64,000 nucleotides of DNA. Origin: Hydractinia symbiolongicarpus (lineage: Eukaryota; Cnidaria; Hydrozoa; Anthoathecata; Hydractiniidae). Of the stretch, positions 29,058-52,400 are shown in pieces (the stretch's first letter is position 1; every line of letters starts with the position of its first letter). A program made the translations under genes and the position numbers. The stretch is from NCBI RefSeq assembly GCF_029227915.1, contig NC_079880.1, forward strand, positions 3,164,001 to 3,228,000, given 5' to 3'. The notes under the pieces were generated by a model. The model was given only the letters and a program-made list of their open reading frames with translations, searched no databases and was not told the origin of the DNA.

Positions 29058-30452
29058 TTTCCAGAACGATTTTTTAAATTACTTTTTCACCACTAAAACG
29101 CATGAGACTTGTAGTTTTCATTTTTGATGAGACGCTGAATAAAAGCAGTTTAATCGCCGGCAAACGAAATCCCGCGTTTGCCCGTAAATCCGGGGCTTGG
29201 CCCGTATAGTCGAATGTATACAAAGAACGTACCCAGGGAGTAAACTCATTTCCCGAACGATTTTTTAATTTTTTTTTTCATCACTAAAACGCATGAGACT
29301 TGTAGTTTTCAAAAATGTTTTCATTTTTGATGAGACGCTGAATAAAAGAAGTTTAATCGCCGGCAAACGAAACCCGCGATTTCCGGTAAATCCCGGGCTT
29401 GGCCCGTGTAGTCAAAAGTATACAAAGAAAGTACCCAGGGAATAAACTCATTTCCCGAACGATTTTTTAAATTACTTTTTCGCCACTAAAACGCATGAGA
29501 CTTGCAGTTTTTAAAAATGTTTTCATTTTTGATAAGACGCTGAATAAAAGCAGTTTAATCACCGGCAAACGAAATCCCGCGATTTCCCGTAAATCCGGGG
29601 CTTGGTCCGTATAGCCGAATGTATACAAAGAAAGTACCCAGGGAGGAAATTCATTTCCCGAACGATTTTTTAAATTTTTTTTTCACCACTAAAACGCATG
29701 AGACTTGTAGTTTTCAAAAATGTTTTCATTCTTGATGAGACGCTTAATGAAAGAGGTTTAATCGCTGGAAAACGAAAACCTGCGATTTCCCGTAAATCCC
29801 GGGCTTGGCCCGTATAGTCGAATGTATACAAAGAAAGTACCCTGTGAGTAAACTCATTTCCAGAACGATTTTTTAAATGATTTTTTCACCACTAAAACGC
29901 ATGAGACTTGCAGTTTTTAAAAATGTTTTCATTTTTGATAAGACGCTGAATAAAAGCAGTTTAATCACCGGCAAACGAAATCCCGCGATTTCCCGTAAAT
30001 CCGGGGCTTGGTCCGTATAGCCGAATGTATACAAAGAAAGTACCCAGGGAGTAAATTCATTTCCCGAACGATTTTTTAAATTTTTTTTTCACCACTAAAA
30101 CGCATGAGACTTGTAGTTTTTAAAAATGTTTTTATTTTTGATGAGACGCTGAATAAAAGACGTTTAATCGCCGGCAAACGAAAACCCGCGATTTCCCGTA
30201 AATCCCGGCTTGGCCCGTATAGTCAAAAGTATACAAAGAAAGTACCCAGGGAGTAAACTCATTTCCCGAACGATTTTTTAAATTATTTTTTCACCACTAA
30301 AACGCATGAGACTTGTAGTTTTCAAAAATGTTTTCATTTTTGATGAGACGCTTAATGAAAGAGGTTTAATCGCCGGAAAACGAAAACCCGCGATTTCCCG
30401 TAAATCCCGGGCTTGGCCCGTATAGTCGAATGTATACAAAGAAAGTACCCTG
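29058..30452 (-). repeat. Satellite block 3, - orientation (left flank of RAG1-like element)
   Basis: About seven monomers in reverse orientation. The run 29881-30452 is nearly identical to about 37190-37757, an 8-monomer HOR offset once the inserted transposon is removed. No gene. Confidence 0.95.
30449..30452. repeat. CCTG target-site duplication, left copy
   Basis: The satellite string gaaagtaccctgtgag is interrupted after cctg. The same four bases follow the right end of the transposon at 36133-36136. The unoccupied form is present at 37754-37757. Confidence 0.9.
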
Positions 30453-30492
30453 CACGGTAGTTCACGGGCGGACATTCAGTCTGCGCATGCGC
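30453..30492 (+). repeat. RAG1-like transposon left terminal inverted repeat
   Basis: Starts CACGGTAGTTCA. It then carries GCGGACATTCAG (30468-30479), a short variable step, and a CGCATGCGC palindromic block. The same three parts occur in the same order, inverted, at the right end. Confidence 0.85.
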
Positions 30493-31213
30493 TAATTTTG
30501 TTTACATTTTTAAAAAAAATCAAAATGGCGACCAGTCGCGTGTTTGTTATGTTTTTTCACGCCTTATTGAATTTGATCAATAAGCAAATTAAATTCACGT
30601 GAAGAATTGCTGACTCAGGTTTTTGAGCACGCCGTGGAACATTCTTTTGAAGAAACGTGAGCGAGAAGGTCGAATGTCTTGAGAAAGATAGATTCTCAGG
30701 TCGAAAAATGTGCAATCAAATTTCGCGAAATTTTCAATTCCTGGATTAAATAGCTTAAAATCAAACCTCGGCCGGTTATGTCGGCATTCAACTGGGTTTT
30801 GCTGGGCAGTTAAAAGGCTAAGGGAACCAATGTAAGTTACCTTGATTGATGGCCACTTTTTTTGTTAAGTCTATGAATAGTCAAAGTTGAGCATTTATAA
30901 AGACGTCATTTTGTACCTGTGTTCAGGTATTTACACTGCACTATACTGGGTTCTTACTGGTGGTATATGTTTTTATCTAAATAACAACTATAGCTAGCTA
31001 AAGGTTGAAAAGCTGGATAAAGGCTTTAGGATGTTCTTATATAGCTATCTGCACTGCACTGTTACTACATCTCGTCAAATTTGTAGCCGAGTAGCTATCC
31101 TATTACATTTTTACATCTGCACTCTGGCAATTTTTACTCTATGAAAACTTTAATAATTATAAACTAGTAGCTAGGTATCTGCTATCTAATACGTCTGATA
31201 TCCAACAAATAAT
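30493..31213. other. Transposon left non-coding region (3' of the RAG1-like gene)
   Basis: About 720 bp without a convincing ORF. Contents: an AAAATGGCG motif at 30522-30530, and the blocks GGCCGGTTA at 30770-30778 and GATGGCCACTTTTTTTG at 30848-30864, both repeated in inverse order near the other end. On the minus strand an AATAAA overlaps the transposase stop codon. Probably 3' UTR plus end sequences recognised during transposition. Confidence 0.6.
30848..30864 (+). repeat. Subterminal inverted repeat, left (GATGGCCACTTTTTTTG)
   Basis: A 17-bp perfect match to the minus strand of 35748-35764. It lies 395 bp from the left end; the partner is 368 bp from the right end. A second pair, GGCCGGTTA, lies 317 bp (30770) and 292 bp (35840) from the ends. 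Confidence 0.7.
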
Positions 31214-34200
31214 TTATTCCTGGACAATTTTCCTTCTTTTAATCACGGGCCTTATTCCCTGTACTTCAGGATGGATGCGCAAGTGATGTTCCTTCATCAT
31301 TGAAAGTAACCTTTTGCTGTCTGGCTTCATCATGCAATAGGTACGTCGAAGATTGTTGAACTCAGCATGAATACTTTCGCCACCCTGCTCGCTATATAGG
31401 CCAAGCCCAACACCCCACTTCTCAATAAACCCAACAACATGTTTTTCCAGCAAGTGAAGTTTTGGAGTCACAGGTGCTTTTGGAAATTTTGTCCGGAAGT
31501 ACAACATCAAATCCTTTATAGCTTTATCTAATTAGTATGAAACACAAAAATAGTCAATTAAATTTCAGAAAATTAGGAAATTTTTAGCAGACAGCATACT
31601 TCAAAATACAGGATTTATCAACGCTAATTAATTAATTTAGTTATTAATTACCTAAGGACGATAACTTTTCTTTGTTGAATTCTTGACAGGAATTCATTGC
31701 GTTGTGGCACATACTATATTTATAGAATAACAACTTGTATTTGGCTGATAATTCCACAGCTCCTTTGTGAATGTTTGTGCCTGCAAGGCCAGGTACATTG
31801 TATACCATGAGGGGTATTGCATTACACAATTCTATTATGTTACCAACCTAATAAAAATAATATATTTTTTTTGGCAAAATATTTTTGAAAAGTTGCTTTT
31901 TGTGCAGAAATATTGTAAGTTACCTTGAGCATTTTGTGTACATGGTTACCAATAAACGACTGACCATGGTATGCTTGCCTCTCCACATTTAACCTTTTCA
32001 AGGTTTCGTCAAGCTTTTTTACCAGCATTCCATCCCCCTTTTCAAGTTTAAAGGAGCCATTTTCCAGAGCATCAATCTCCTTTAACTATCAAGAAAAGTA
32101 ACTGTTGTTGATTATATAACATATAAAAAATTTAAAGAAAATAACAATATTTTTATGTACTATGTAAAATCCAAATTGTGCTATCCCTACAAACTTTAGT
32201 GTTGCTCACCCTTTCTGCAATTCTGTTATTAAGATACTTTAACCTTGGTTCATATATCATTCTAATCTCAGTCTCGTTGTCTGGGTCTTTGATAATTGCA
32301 GTTTCAATTGCATCATGTACCAGGCCAATTTTCTCCTCACAATCCTCACAAACATATTTTAAATTTTCTATCTTTTGTCTAGTCTCAACCAGTCTGTCTA
32401 TATCACCTGTATCTTTTATTTGTTCAGATGCAGCTATTCTAATGTCCAACAAATGACATTCATCTTCCAACATTCTGAAAAATTTTAGGTATGTCCCCAG
32501 GGAAATATGAAGCACTGGAATGGCAACCTAAGGTATACATGCAATTTTTTGTTTGTATGGTTTGGTATCTACAAACATAATCTGTTTCAAGTACTTATCA
32601 GTAAATACTTACTTGGTCAATAGGAATGTTGAACATAACATCATCTATCACATTGTTAAAGTTTTTTGCATTTTTTATGTTTCCCCCACTGTCTCTAAAC
32701 CTTTTAAGGTCATATGCCAAGGATTCTAGTGTCCTTTGTTCAAATTGCCCTAAAACATAAAGTCATTCTCAGTTTTATGAATTACTAATAATCCATCAGG
32801 TTAGAAAATATTATGCATTCTTCACAGCTATACTAATGACACTACATAGTCATCATTTTTACCTTGATCCTTAACAGGCTTTTGTATATCTTCCTTTGTA
32901 ATTGTACAAAATAAACAGCAATGTCGTCCTGTTGATTAAAATTATATTATTATTTTAAAAATATCAAGTGGCCTGTGGATAAATACATGGGTTCGTATTT
33001 TGCCAGGTTTTACAGTTTTTAAAAAAAAACAATGTATGGGAAAATTTTTTTAATTTTTGCAAGACCTTGTCAATATGAAATTTGGGACATTTTCTCTTAC
33101 ATTGCTTTCTCCTATAAATGTACCTGATGCTCCTGTAATTCCATATGCTGTACAGAGAAAAGCGTAATCTCCAAAAAAAAATACACGTATATTTCTTCCC
33201 CTAAAAGGAAATTAATCTTGTGAAAACAAAACATACACTTACCTACACCTTTTATAATAATGTATAAATTGTAGATGAGGCTAATTTCAGCCTCAAATGT
33301 TCTTATTCAGTGTTCTATGTTTAGGATTGGAACAAATTATATGAAAACGTAATCTCATTGAAAAAAAGCATATATACACATGATCTTAGCATTGGACCAA
33401 ATCTCAACCTAACTATTTGATTTGTTAACCTCTATTTATTTTTAACTACATTTTTTGCCTATTTGTCACTGCCACTTTTACTATAAAATACATAAAATAA
33501 ATGTATATGACATACTGCCATGTTGCTTTTTGAAGAATATCAACTTGTGCCTTGAATTTTAATAATGCAACTTTCAGGTTTGTTGAAGAATCTTTAGCCT
33601 CAAAAGCACTGAAAACAACAGTATTGTCTTTACTGTTTGGTTTTGTGACATTACATGGTTGATAAGACATTTTAAAAGAGCCACCACCATGGTCACCTCC
33701 TATCTTTAGATGGATTTCATCTTTAAAAGCTTGTCTCTCTAGCAGCATGGAATTTCTAAATTGTAACAATTAATAACTTCGTATTATACAACCAGGTAAT
33801 TGTTGTTGCTGTTGTTGTTTATGTGCACAGTCAGAATGCATTTAATGTTTTTTGTAAGAAAAACTCACTCAGCCAGTTTGTCCATATGTTCATAAAAGTG
33901 TGTTGGCAAATCATCAACATAACACCAAGGAGCGGGTTGGATTACATATACCCCTTTCTGGTCCTTAGACTCGAAGCGGAATGGGGCAACTTCAACTTTT
34001 AAGTTTTCACCGTACCAATTTTTTGCAACTTGCCTTTGCCTGGCTTGTGAAGCTGGTTGTATGTTGAAAGTCTTCAACCACCTGAAATAATAATTTATTT
34101 TCTCAACTATTTTTGAAAAAATTTTAGGAACAGATGAAGCATGGAGTTTGTATTACCTGGCCATTGTTTTCATCTTCTCCCAGGGCACACCCATATCTGC

Positions 34201-35658
34201 TTTTAAAGCAACCATTGCTTCAGAAGTTATTGTTGCAGAAGATAATTGTGCTTCCTTCAAAATTGTCTCCCGTTCTGCCTGAGGAAAGCGCTTTACCAAG
34301 GCAGAAGTCTGCCCTAACAAGGAAAATTTTGTCGATCCAGCTGCCGTGAAGATTTGGTCGTGAAGGAATTTTGTTCTTCTTCTCAAGTGACGGCGACTAA
34401 CATTTTCTTTAATTCCTTTTGGAGTAGATGTCAAGACTAATGGCTGAAAATAATTATTCTCATAGATAAATATTGGTATACATAACATAGCTTTTTATAA
34501 ATGTTTTATTAGAATAATAAGAATATTAGAGTGAGATTTACGTTAAAAACGTTTTTATTTAGATCAATTTTATTCCCACCTCTATGAAATACTCTTTTTG
34601 TGTAAATCAGTCTAATATTCTTACGAAGCATATTTATGTGTTGTTGTTTATGGAGGTGATTAAATCCGATTCAAAAACCTAATTTTATTAAAAAAATAAG
34701 TAGTAATCAGACTTAGTCACATCCGTATGTAAGCCTTTCCATAAATACATACCCTGGATCCACCTGTCTTGAATTCAATGCTTTTAATTGGATTTCTGGA
34801 ATTGGCAATTTTATGCTGAATAACTTGCACAGCCACATCTTCAATCTCCCTTGGTATTGAATTGTCCAAATTAAAAGTCTTTTCAAAAAGGGGTGTTAGG
34901 GTTGTTTTCGGAAAACAAGATCTTTGATGTTCTAACAATGCCGCTTTTGATTTAAGTGGAAACAGTTTACCACAATGCTTATCACATGCGACTCGGAGGC
35001 ATTTAAGCATTTCCACGTGATGTTTCGAAAAACGAATTGTTCCCACCAATGATTCACTGCCGCAAGTGGGGCATTTTGCTTCCTCTTCAGTTTTCCCTTC
35101 AAAATGTTTGACAAGGCATGAAAGGCAGTATGCATGCTGACAGGATAGTAAAACAGGCCGAGAAAGTAGGTTGTGACACATGGGGCACAAACACAAGTTT
35201 AAGTGTGCATTGTGTTCCGGCTTAACTGCACCGAGGTCGTAAGCAGGTTCGTTTTCAGGGGTCATGCTTAAAAATTCTTCAAAGTCTTTTCTCCTCCACA
35301 GTTTTTTACCAGCTTTTGGTCTGCCTGATTTTGCTTTGGGTATGGGTTTACCCCCCTTTCTAGAGCTCCCCTCCTTGCACACTCGACAGTTATCGGAATG
35401 GGGTATCCAGGATATATGCTCGTGCTTTGTTGTTGTAGAGCGATCTCGAATGTTTTTTATACGTGCATAACATTTTGAGCAAATTTTTGTTGGGTGAACT
35501 TCGGCGGAATCTTTCTCCACATTAAGGAATAGGAATCGGTTAAGGTCGTTGATCCTATCGCTCACGTTATAATTGCATTTCCTTTTGCCAAGGTATTCAC
35601 CACAAACTCTACAAAGCTTTGCTAAGTGCTGAACGTGCTGTTGCATATTGGCAGCCAT
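31214..35658 (-). CDS. RAG1-like transposase with RING finger, 11 exons, 971 aa
   Basis: Exons: 35658-34753, 34443-34157, 34081-33869, 33755-33516, 33200-33124, 32928-32863, 32749-32613, 32527-32210, 32085-31924, 31847-31652, 31527-31214. All ten introns are GT-AG, 75-315 bp, and the frame stays open for 2916 nt. The start is the ATG in aagATGgct; the frame opens further upstream only with a TTG. Residues 1-250 resemble the RAG1 N-terminus: KLCRVCG at C16/C19, VHPTKICSKC at C60/C63, WIPHSDNCRVC at H87/C91/C94, a C3HC4 RING (C158, C161, C173, H175, C178, C181, C196, C199) and a finger C220/C225/C229/H244/C248. The core lines up with RAG1: D490 (IGGDHGGGS), D560 (FFFGDY), ASG then C579-LF-C582, H892-x4-H897 and E918 (SEQGGES), matching mouse D600, D708, C727/C730, H937/H942 and E962. 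Length is close to RAG1 (1040 aa). Alignment is by eye; whether it is RAG, Transib or Chapaev type is open. Confidence 0.85.
34753..35658 (-). other. Exon 1 of RAG1-like gene: N-terminal zinc/RING module
   Basis: This exon alone encodes residues 1-302: all visible zinc motifs, plus a basic linker (residues 100-123, rich in K and R) between the first zinc cluster and the RING. In RAG1 the RING is an E3 ubiquitin ligase and part of a zinc dimerization domain; the same role is inferred here. A module carried on one exon could be exchanged as a unit. Confidence 0.8.
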
Positions 35659-36081
35659 CTTTGTAAACAAAAGTGTTGTTAATGCGAGCTAGGCCTAAGG
35701 AATTCGCTGGATAAGTAGTAGGTGTAGGAAATCGTATGTAACTTTCTCAAAAAAAGTGGCCATCAGTTAAGATTTTCAGGTCTCGTAGATTATTTCCTAA
35801 TCTACTTCAGGCATAAATTTCAACACCGTGCTAACCGGCCAGCAGAAGATATAGGCCTTGAACAGTTGTTATTTTTCCAGTCAAAGTGGAGAAGAAAATG
35901 TACGTGTTTTTTGATAAATTTTTTAATGTTTTTGTTTTAAAGAGGATCAGAATTTGTCATGTATTCCAAAATGCAAAATAGAAAGTGACAAATTTCTGCA
36001 AATTTGAATATTTAAATCAAGTTTTGTTGCTACCTTTATTTTAGCTAGGTAAAAAACTGAAATTTTTGTTCTTGGAAGTTT
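35659..36081. other. Transposon right non-coding region (promoter side of RAG1-like gene)
   Basis: About 420 bp without a gene, between the transposase start and the right TIR. It holds the inverted partners of the left subterminal blocks (35748-35764 and 35832-35840). The promoter of the minus-strand gene must lie here or in the TIR, but I cannot pick a TATA box with confidence. Confidence 0.6.
35748..35764 (-). repeat. Subterminal inverted repeat, right
   Basis: Minus-strand copy of GATGGCCACTTTTTTTG, partner of 30848-30864. Confidence 0.7.
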
Positions 36082-36132
36082 GCGCATGCGTACTCTGAAT
36101 GTCCGCTCTTTTAGTCGGGCTGAATGAACGTG
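36082..36132 (-). repeat. RAG1-like transposon right terminal inverted repeat
   Basis: Read on the minus strand it starts CACGTTCATTCA, then has about 11 extra bases relative to the left end, then GCGGACATTCAG (36095-36106), a 4-base step and CGCATGCGC. The 12-bp block is perfectly conserved between ends, while the outer 12 bp match at about 9 positions. Confidence 0.85.
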
Positions 36133-36136
36133 CCTG
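36133..36136. repeat. CCTG target-site duplication, right copy
   Basis: Partner of 30449-30452; the satellite then continues as tgagaaaactcatttcc. Confidence 0.9.
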
Positions 36137-49247: not shown

Positions 49248-49415
49248 TATTTATTTATTTATTTATTTCCGAATTTATATACAGGATGAGTATGTCAGTA
49301 AAAAATACTGTTATAAATATACGTCCTGTTTATGCATACGTTAAAATCTAGTTAGTAATATATATTAAAAATGCAAAGAAAAGTATCAAACTGAAAAAAA
49401 TATAATCTCAAAAAT
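49248..49415. other. 168-bp AT-rich insertion of unknown origin
   Basis: Between cccgtaaatc and ctcggcccg the satellite is interrupted by a TTTA run (49248-49267) followed by unique AT-rich sequence. The equivalent intact site in the neighbouring 9-mer HOR copy (47421-47435) reads aaatc-ccgga-ctcgg, so the insertion replaced 5 bp (ccgga) and made no clear target duplication. On the minus strand it would end in a TAAA-type simple tail, like the 3' end of a truncated non-LTR retroelement or SINE; repair filler DNA is equally possible. No ORF. Confidence 0.75.
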
Positions 49416-52400
49416 CTCGGCCCGTATAGTCAAATGTATACAAAGAAAGTACCCAGGGAGTAAACTCATTTCCCGAACGATTTTTTAAATTATTTTTTCA
49501 CCACTAAAACGCATGAGACTTGTAGTTGTCAAAAATGTTTTCATTTTTGATGAGACGCCTAATGAAAGAGGTTTAATCGCCGGCAAACGAAATCCGGCGT
49601 TTTCCCGTAAATCCGGGTTTCGGCCCGCATAGTCGAATGTATACAAAGAAAGTACCCAGGGAGTAAACTCATTTCCCGAACAATTTTTTAAATTTTTTTT
49701 TCACCACTAAAACGCATGAGACTTGTAGTTTTCAAAAATGTTTTCATTTTTGATGAGACGCTTAATCAAAGAGGTTTAATCGCCGGAAAACGAAAACCCG
49801 CGATTTCCTGTAAATCCCGAGCTTGGTCCGTATAGTCGAATGTATACAAAGAAAGTACCCTGTGAGTAAACTCATTTCCAGAACGATTTTTTAAATTATT
49901 TTTTCACCACTAAAACGCATAATACTTGTAGGTTTTAAAAATGTTTTCATTTTTGATGAGACGCTGAATAAAAGAAGTTTAATCGCCGGCAAACGAAAAC
50001 CCGCGATTTCCCGTAAATCCCGGCTTGGCCCGTATAGTCAAAAGTATACAAAGAAAGTACCCAGGGAGTAAACTCATTTCCCGAATGATTTTTTAAATTA
50101 TATTTTCACCACTAAAACGCATGAGACTTGTAGTTATCAAAAATGTTTTCATTTTTGATGAGACGCTGAATAAAAGAAGTTTAATCGCCGGCAAACGAAA
50201 ACCCGCGATTTCCCGTAAATCCCGGGCTTGGCACGTATAGTCAAATGTATACAAAGAAAGTACCCTGTGAGTAAACCCATTTCCAGAACGATTTTTCAAA
50301 TTATTTTTTCACCACTAAAGCCCATGAGACTTGTAGTTTTTAAAAATGTTTTCATTTTTGATGAGACGCTGAATAAAAGAAGTTTAATCGCCGGCAAACG
50401 AAAACCCGCGATTTCCCGTAAATCCCGGCTTGGCCCGTATAGTCAAAAGTATACAAAGAAAGTACCCAGGGAGTAAACTCATTTCCAGATCGATTTTTTA
50501 AATTATTTTTTCACCACTAAAACGCATGAGACTTGTAGTTTTCAAAAATGTTTTCATTTTTGATGAGACGCTCAATAAAAGAAGTTTAATCGCCGGCAAA
50601 CGAAAACCCGCGATTTCCCGTAAATCCCGGCTTGGCCCGTATAGTCAAAAGTATACAAAGAAAGTACCCATGGAGTAAACTCATTTCCCAAACGATTTTT
50701 TAAATTGTTTTTTCACCACTAAAACGCATGAGACTTGTAGTTTTCAAAAATGTTTTCATTTTTGATGAGACGCTGAATAAAAGCAGTTTAATCGCCGGCA
50801 AACGAAAATCCGCGATTTCCCGTAAATCCCGGACTCGGCCCGCATAGTCAAAAGTATACAAAGAAAGTACCCAGGGAGTAAACTCATTTTCCGAACGATT
50901 TTTTAAATTATTTTTTCACCACTAAAACGCATGAGACTTGTAGTTGTCAAAAATGTTTTCATTTTTGATGAGACTCTTAATGGAAGAGGTTTAATCGCCG
51001 GCAAACGAAATCCCGCGTTTTCCCGTAAATCCGGGGCTTGGCCCGTATAGTCGAATGTATACAAAGAAAGTACCCAGGGAGTAAACTCATTTCCCGAACG
51101 ATTTTTTAAATTACTTTTTCACCACTAAAACGCATGAGACTTGTAGTTTTCAAAAATGTTTTCAATTTTGATGAGACGCTGAATAAAAGAAGTTTAATCG
51201 CCGGCAAACGAAAACCCGCGATTTCCCGTAAATCCCGGCTTGGCCGGTATAGTCAAAAGTATACAAAGAAAGTACCCAGGGAGTAAACTCATTTCCCGAA
51301 GGATTTTTTAAATTATTTTGTCACCGCTAAAACGCATGAGACTTGTAGTTTTCAAAAATGTTTTCATTTTTGATGAGACGCTGAATAAAAGCAGTTTAAT
51401 CGCCGGCAAACGAAAATCCGCGATTTCCCGTAAATCCCGGACTCGGCCCGTATAGTCAAAAGTATACAAAGAAAGTACCCAGGGAGTAAACTCATTTCCC
51501 GAACGATTTTTTAAATTATTTTTTCACCACTAAAACGCATGAGACTTGTAGTTGTCAAAAATGTTTTCATTTTTGATGAGACGCTTAATGAAAGAGGTTT
51601 AATCGCCGGCAAACGAAATCCGGCGTTTTCCCGTAAATCCGGGGCTTGGCCCGCATAGTCGAATGTATACAAAGAAAGTACCCAGGGAGTAAACTCATTT
51701 CCCGAACAATTTTTTAAATTTTTTTTTCACCACTAAAACGCATGAGACTTGTAGTTTTCAAAAATGTTTTCATTTTTGATGAGACTCTTAATGAAAGAGG
51801 TTTAATCGCCGGCAAACGAAATCCCGCGTTTTCCCGTAAATCCGGGGCTTGGCCCGTATAGTCGAATGTATAAAAAGAAAGTACTAAGGGAGTAAACTCA
51901 TTTCCCGAACGATTTTTTAAATTACTTTTTCACCACTAAAACGCATGAGACTTGTAGTTTTCAAAAATGTTTTCAATTTTGATGAGACGCTGAATAAAAG
52001 AAGTTTAATCGCCGGCAAACGAAAACCCGCGATTTCCCGTAAATCCCGGCTTGGCCGGTATAGTCAAAAGTATACAAAGAAAGTACCCAGGGAGTAAACT
52101 CATTTCCCGAAGGATTTTTTAAATTATTTTTTCACCACTAAAACGCATGAGACTTGTAGTTTTCAAAAATGTTTTCATTTTTGATGAGACGCTGAATAAA
52201 AGCAGTTTAATCGCCGGCAAACGAAAATCCGCGATTTCCCGTAAATCCCGGACTCGGCCCGTATAGTCAAAAGTATACAAAGAAAGTACCCAGGGAGTAA
52301 ACTCATTTCCCGAACGATTTTTTAAATTATTTTTTCACCACTAAAACGCATGAGACTTGTAGTTGTCAAAAATGTTTTCATTTTTGATGAGACTCTTAAT

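Follow-up and report, generated by a model that had tools for sequence, protein, structure and literature searches.

The 64,000-nt window analysed here (positions 3164001-3228000 of contig C6 of Hydractinia symbiolongicarpus) contains a 5680-bp Chapaev transposon whose two ends carry the same inner sequence block at different distances from the tip, 17 bp at one end and 28 bp at the other. An autonomous, recently mobile cut-and-paste DNA transposon, with a RAG1-like transposase encoded by a single gene and acting on a pair of unlike ends, is the best explanation of the whole, with a probability of about 0.87. The element occupies positions 30453 to 36132, with its gene on the minus strand. Outside it, the window consists almost entirely of a 203-bp satellite.

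The left terminal repeat, on the gene 3' side (30453-30492, plus strand), is formed by the tip CACGGTAGTTCA, a 3-bp spacer and the inner block at bases 16-40 from the tip. At the right end, on the gene 5' side (36082-36132, minus strand), the tip CACGTTCATTCA is followed by a 14-bp spacer and by the block at bases 27-51. The blocks are identical at 22 of 25 positions; 17 bp precede GGACATTCAG at the left end and 28 bp at the right. A first-pass annotation of this DNA made no mention of the 11-bp asymmetry. The 17/28 arrangement is present in eight of the nine family 1 copies in which both tips can be read (the window element, L019, L021, L022, L023, L025, L029 and L030), while the 154-bp copy L026 has 17/27. 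The right-end spacing of a 257-bp copy is 28. In L021, L022, L025 and L030 the right tip is altered at its third or fourth base. The count excludes L035, in which the right tip is absent, and a copy on C5, in which both tips are mutated and the blocks lie at 17 and 28.

The genome (480.9 Mb, 76 contigs) was also scanned for both end types, allowing any gap from 5 to 35 bases, so the spacing was not preset. The pattern CACG...GACATTCAGNNTNCGCATGCGC gave at least 13 matches, which fell into only two length classes differing by 11 bp, the shorter with 10 matches and the longer with 3. The right-end pattern CATTCA...GACATTCAGNNTNNGCATGCG gave at least 10, nine of one length and one a single base shorter, with six different spacer sequences among them. 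Both counts are lower bounds, include near-identical copies and do not represent independent events. Reversed-pattern controls of the two scans gave no matches. When the two ends of family 1 were compared at different offsets, 11 bp was clearly the best register (score 21), and none of 2000 shuffles reached this score at any offset.

A protein search of the genome, in which 47 of 664 first-look candidates were scored, returned at least 86 exon matches, including families at 33-43% identity. Two of these were chosen for comparison, family 2 on the basis of copy number and family 3 on that of its N-terminal match. The N-terminal exon of family 3 is 37% identical to that of the window element, and the match covers the RING. 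The family is represented on C9 (L051/L053), where it measures 5339 bp, and on C3 (L052/L054), with the target duplications CATG and TTTC; the two are identical across the 579 and 1161 bp compared close to the two ends. Its ends, CACGCATATTTACGGGA/CGAATTTATTTGTGTGCATGCGC and CACGCTAGTTCTAGCGGTACGCAAATAG/CGAATTTAATTATGCGCATGCGC, again have spacings of 17 and 28 despite different block letters. The right end has a single length in six of six genome matches, a lower bound, with none in the control. In the offset test 11 bp is again best (score 17), and 0 of 2000 shuffles reach that score at any offset. Family 2 is present as two 4549-bp elements (L049, 1374-5922; L050, 1360-5908) that are 100% identical, lie on two contigs and have different 4-bp duplications; the same protein score is found at 14 genome places. 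Its N-terminal frame contains the Chapa region, and no RING was seen there. Offsets 10 and 4 tie in this family at a score of 8, which is reached by 147 of 2000 shuffles at some offset and by 11 of 2000 at offsets 10-12. In this genome, the 17/28 asymmetry is strongly supported in families 1 and 3 and ambiguous in family 2. The activity of several Chapaev lineages here seems to be very recent.

The ends of the window element are set by a 4-bp duplication together with an unoccupied satellite site. CCTG is found at 30449-30452 and again at 36133-36136. Of 147 gapless satellite matches spanning the joined flanks, 27 read AAGTACCCTGTGAGTAAACT, the target variant of the element, and 81 read AAGTACCCAGGGAGTAAACT, the commonest form. 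The empty variant has a single CCTG, and the element is flanked by two; therefore, exactly 4 bp were duplicated, and the ends and clean target duplication given in the first-pass annotation are correct. Chapaev target duplications are 4 bp long. Perfect 4-bp duplications flank 10 of the 14 copies with both flanks seen: the window element, L019, L021, L022, L025, L029 and two copies each of families 2 and 3. They are lacking in L023 (TAGA/TATA), L026, L030 and the C5 copy (L020/L040).

The full-length copy L019, on another contig, is 99.6% identical to the window element, and the full-length copies L021 and L022 show 98.8% identity. The latter two lie 33 kb apart on contig C4, have 20 flanking bases in common on both sides, and show a single base difference among the coding codons compared; they are therefore probably one insertion that was duplicated along with the satellite. 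They are found in the same satellite as the window element, on a different contig and at a different position within the unit. L023 is an internally deleted copy. On C5 (19.12-19.28 Mb), four related left ends (L031-L034) have identical sequence in the stretch shown and lie 34-66 kb apart, probably as a duplicated segment. Within the window, about 170 bp of unrelated A+T-rich sequence breaks the satellite at 49248-49419, with TATT-type repeats at its start. The window element itself is an intact jumping gene, apparently with recent activity.

The transposase gene comprises eleven exons between 35658 and 31214 on the minus strand. Re-splicing of the ten GT-AG introns gives a 2916-nt frame that encodes 971 residues without an internal stop, exactly as first proposed from the window, and projection of the exons shows that all lengths and splice sites are kept in L019, L021 and L022. 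Exon 1 (34753-35658) encodes the Chapa zinc region, which is of the RAG1 N-terminal type, the RING, a further zinc region and a terminal GGSR. Exon 2 (34157-34443) encodes a helical segment at the place of the RAG1 nonamer-binding domain. Exon 3 (33869-34081) is followed by exons 4 (33516-33755), 5 (33124-33200) and 6 (32863-32928), which hold D490, D560 and the CxxC pair C579 and C582, respectively. Exons 7 (32613-32749), 8 (32210-32527), 9 (31924-32085) and 10 (31652-31847) lead to exon 11 (31214-31527), which holds H892/H897 and E918 and runs to the stop codon. At nine of the ten exon junctions the homologues are gap-free in most rows (11/14 up to 13/13 and 17/18); at the sixth, located in a variable loop, only 6 of 17 rows have no extra gaps. 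The gene is intact, as had been claimed, and the frame is open in L019 and L022 as well, with one internal stop in L021. The window element and L019 differ at 7 of 548 synonymous and 2 of 2158 non-synonymous sites (12 of 549 and 10 of 2157 for L022), so that synonymous differences per site exceed non-synonymous ones.

The N-terminal region matches mouse RAG1 residues 154-380 with an E-value of 3e-23 in a profile search and 1.4e-29 in a profile-profile comparison, and a domain search places the RING at residues 158-199. Both features had been read correctly in the first-pass annotation. A GGxRP motif and subsequent predicted helices are located where RAG1 has its nonamer-binding domain, and tests of this homology were not significant. 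The core contains D490, D560, C579xxC582, H892xxxxH897 and E918, and a recheck of the codons placed the three acidic residues where they had been proposed. D490 is invariant in 19 aligned rows and D560 nearly so, and the CxxC is in register with that of RAG1. Pfam PF06918 (DUF1280) matches 19 of 19 aligned transposases, covering residues 372-545 of the window protein and spanning D490; the domain, which has no assigned function, seems to belong to the Chapaev core.

The earlier assignment of a RAG1-like core holds at the level of fold. Structure prediction gives a homologue of the window protein a RAG1-like core, whose scores against RAG1 and RAGL slightly exceed that against HzTransib. By sequence alone the relation is weak: the core of the homologue is about 14% identical to RAG1 in the structure alignment, and the RAG1 Pfam model is not among the nine families that match the protein at E <= 10, a range in which HMMER filters drop most matches above about 0.1. 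A six-frame genome search with the RAG1 core Pfam model gave 0 matches, and its control likewise gave none. Eighteen protein relatives were found, and all 11 with a named source come from Hydra vulgaris. Uncharacterized Hydra proteins such as P0003, P0005 and P0006, known here as predicted proteins only, are 39-45% identical over 83-99% of the query and have the same domain order where their ends are complete.

We identify the element as Chapaev because it combines a RAG1-type N-terminus (Chapa), a RING, a CMCT core, CAC...GTG ends and a 4-bp duplication; the assignment follows published descriptions, with Chapa judged by its similarity to the RAG1 N-terminus. In CMCT cores, CxxC and H(3-4)H lie between the second D and the E of the D, D, E triad, and the target duplications are 2-5 bp (PMC12730594). 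Chapaev carries Chapa, followed by RING in two subgroups, on a Transib-superfamily core (Kapitonov and Koonin 2015, PMC4411706; excerpts of this and of the four papers cited below were used). By description, the window element shares all three parts. Kapitonov and Koonin argued that the ancestor shared by Chapaev, Transib and RAG1 already had Chapa and RING fused to its core (PMC4411706). RAGL transposons with N-terminal zinc fingers and, in molluscs, also a RING-type dimerization domain have been reported (Martin et al. 2020, PMC7204232). Since both combinations had been reported, a single element with both halves of RAG1 is not the novelty that the first-pass annotation saw in it; as a RAG1 ancestor, it is an ordinary, well-preserved member of a known group. 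The literature searched contained no report of a 17/28 end asymmetry for Chapaev. N-RAG-TP of Aplysia, described by Panchin and Moroz in 2008, reportedly has a RAG1 N-terminal-like sequence inside a transposon, and is similar to our element by this description. It is described as made of the N-terminal-like part only (PMC8355894) and may itself be a Chapaev.

The arrangement of the ends suggests how the element could be mobilized. If expressed, the gene would provide a transposase with a RAG1-like order of parts: the Chapa zinc region, the RING, the segment at the nonamer-binding place and a DDE RNase-H core with CxxC and HxxxxH. On the model of RAG, Transib and ProtoRAG, two transposase molecules would form a dimer that holds the two unlike ends in one complex. 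At each end, the catalytic core would be placed on the CAC tip and a second part of the protein on the inner block. The spacings of 17 and 28 bp differ by one helical turn, which would leave the block on the same face of the helix and yet tell the ends apart; we therefore propose that this turn distinguishes the ends and favours their unlike synapsis. ProtoRAG, as described in PMC8289069, prefers its asymmetric 27/31 ends. The transposase would then cut at CAC and join the ends to the target strands with a 4-bp stagger. A subterminal inverted repeat about 360-410 bp inward of the ends (30841-30864, plus strand; 35748-35771, minus strand; 22 of 24 positions identical) is possibly a further binding site.

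The most serious alternative concerns the spacing itself. It could be real and functionless, arising from an insertion in one ancestral end and inherited by descent, a possibility that we consider less probable than a functional role and still substantial. All elements compared are from one genome and may share one ancestor, L026 has 17/27, and family 2 shows no clear 11. Against a functionless difference, the spacing is retained though the spacer letters, and the block letters of family 3, have changed, and it is nearly retained in the 257-bp and 154-bp copies (28 and 27). For the ProtoRAG 3' spacer, deletions of 1-4 bp are described to reduce activity modestly and those of 5-8 bp dramatically (PMC8289069).

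The other two alternatives concern the identity of the element, and both are improbable. If the element were of the RAGL or TransibVDJ type, it would be directly related to the RAG1-RAG2 ancestor and would have lost RAG2L; this would fit the RAG1 domain order with its RING and the slightly better scores of the modelled homologue fold against RAG1 and RAGL. The low core identity of the homologue and the unmatched RAG1 Pfam model argue against it, and the named proteins nearest to it, from Hydra, are of its own type. No RAG2-like Kelch gene or other second gene was seen: no stop-to-stop frame flanking the gene inside the element exceeds 89 residues, although no profile search was run on these stretches. 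The duplication is 4 bp, compared to 5 bp for RAGL and Transib (PMC7204232). As no room was seen for a RAG2-like gene and the duplication length differs, we do not consider the element a RAGL transposon. Transib sensu stricto was rejected on the same difference in duplication length. Even less probable is a domesticated host gene. It would account for the relative scarcity of non-synonymous differences between copies, but it is already contradicted by near-identical copies on other contigs with 4-bp duplications of their own; the intact ends, the exact duplication within the satellite and the internally deleted L023 also argue for a Chapaev transposon.

The ends of this transposon can be compared with the recombination signal sequences (RSSs) used by RAG1. 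RSS nonamers start 19 (7+12) and 30 (7+23) bases from the tip. The element shares with the RAG1 and 12/23 RSS system the N-terminal region and RING (by sequence), the core (by predicted fold), the CAC tip, the two blocks and the 11-bp difference. Unlike with jawed-vertebrate RAG1, no RAG2-like gene was seen beside it, and its stagger is 4 bp. Its heptamer positions read CACGGTA and CACGTTC instead of CACAGTG, and its inner block, GGACATTCAG, is not an A-rich nonamer and starts at 17/28 rather than 19/30. A CAC tip with a distal block at spacings 11 bp apart, as in a 12/23-type system, is found in families 1 and 3.

Transib elements also have a CAC tip, and some families have 12/23 ends (PMC8355894); asymmetric two-block ends are described throughout Subgroup I and in part of Subgroup II (PMC9435367). 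The N-terminal region is missing from their transposase (PMC8355894, PMC7204232), and their duplications are 5 bp rather than 4. Asymmetric two-block ends like those of our element are also described for AanRAGL, with 4/13 spacers (PMC9435367), and for ProtoRAG (PMC8289069), which differ in encoding RAG1L and RAG2L, in asymmetries of 9 and 4 bp compared to 11, and in 5-bp duplications.

The origin of the 12/23 rule is an unsettled question. According to excerpts of a 2021 review, asymmetry outside V(D)J recombination is known in some Transib families only and not in RAGL transposons (PMC8355894). A 2022 paper reports that an algal RAGL element and Subgroup I Transibs have asymmetric ends, and proposes that this state is ancestral (PMC9435367). 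The one-turn asymmetry at near-RSS distances, seen here in Chapaev elements that have the RAG1 N-terminus and RING, brings a more distant branch into the question. Tentatively, the 11-bp asymmetry could be ancestral to RAG1, Transib and Chapaev; the 12/23 rule would then be inherited from synapsis of 17-type and 28-type ends, and Chapaev would have preserved this state along with the N-terminus and RING of RAG1. We regard this as possible and less likely than not. As a RAG1 "missing link" the element adds little, because its domain combination was published in 2015; the part worth pursuing is the 17/28 asymmetry rather than RAG1 ancestry. The Chapaev transposase is a distant cousin of the enzyme that assembles antibody genes, and the ends of the element resemble the paired DNA signals of the immune system. 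Intact, multi-copy Chapaev systems with a single protein would make a 12/23-type rule testable without RAG2.
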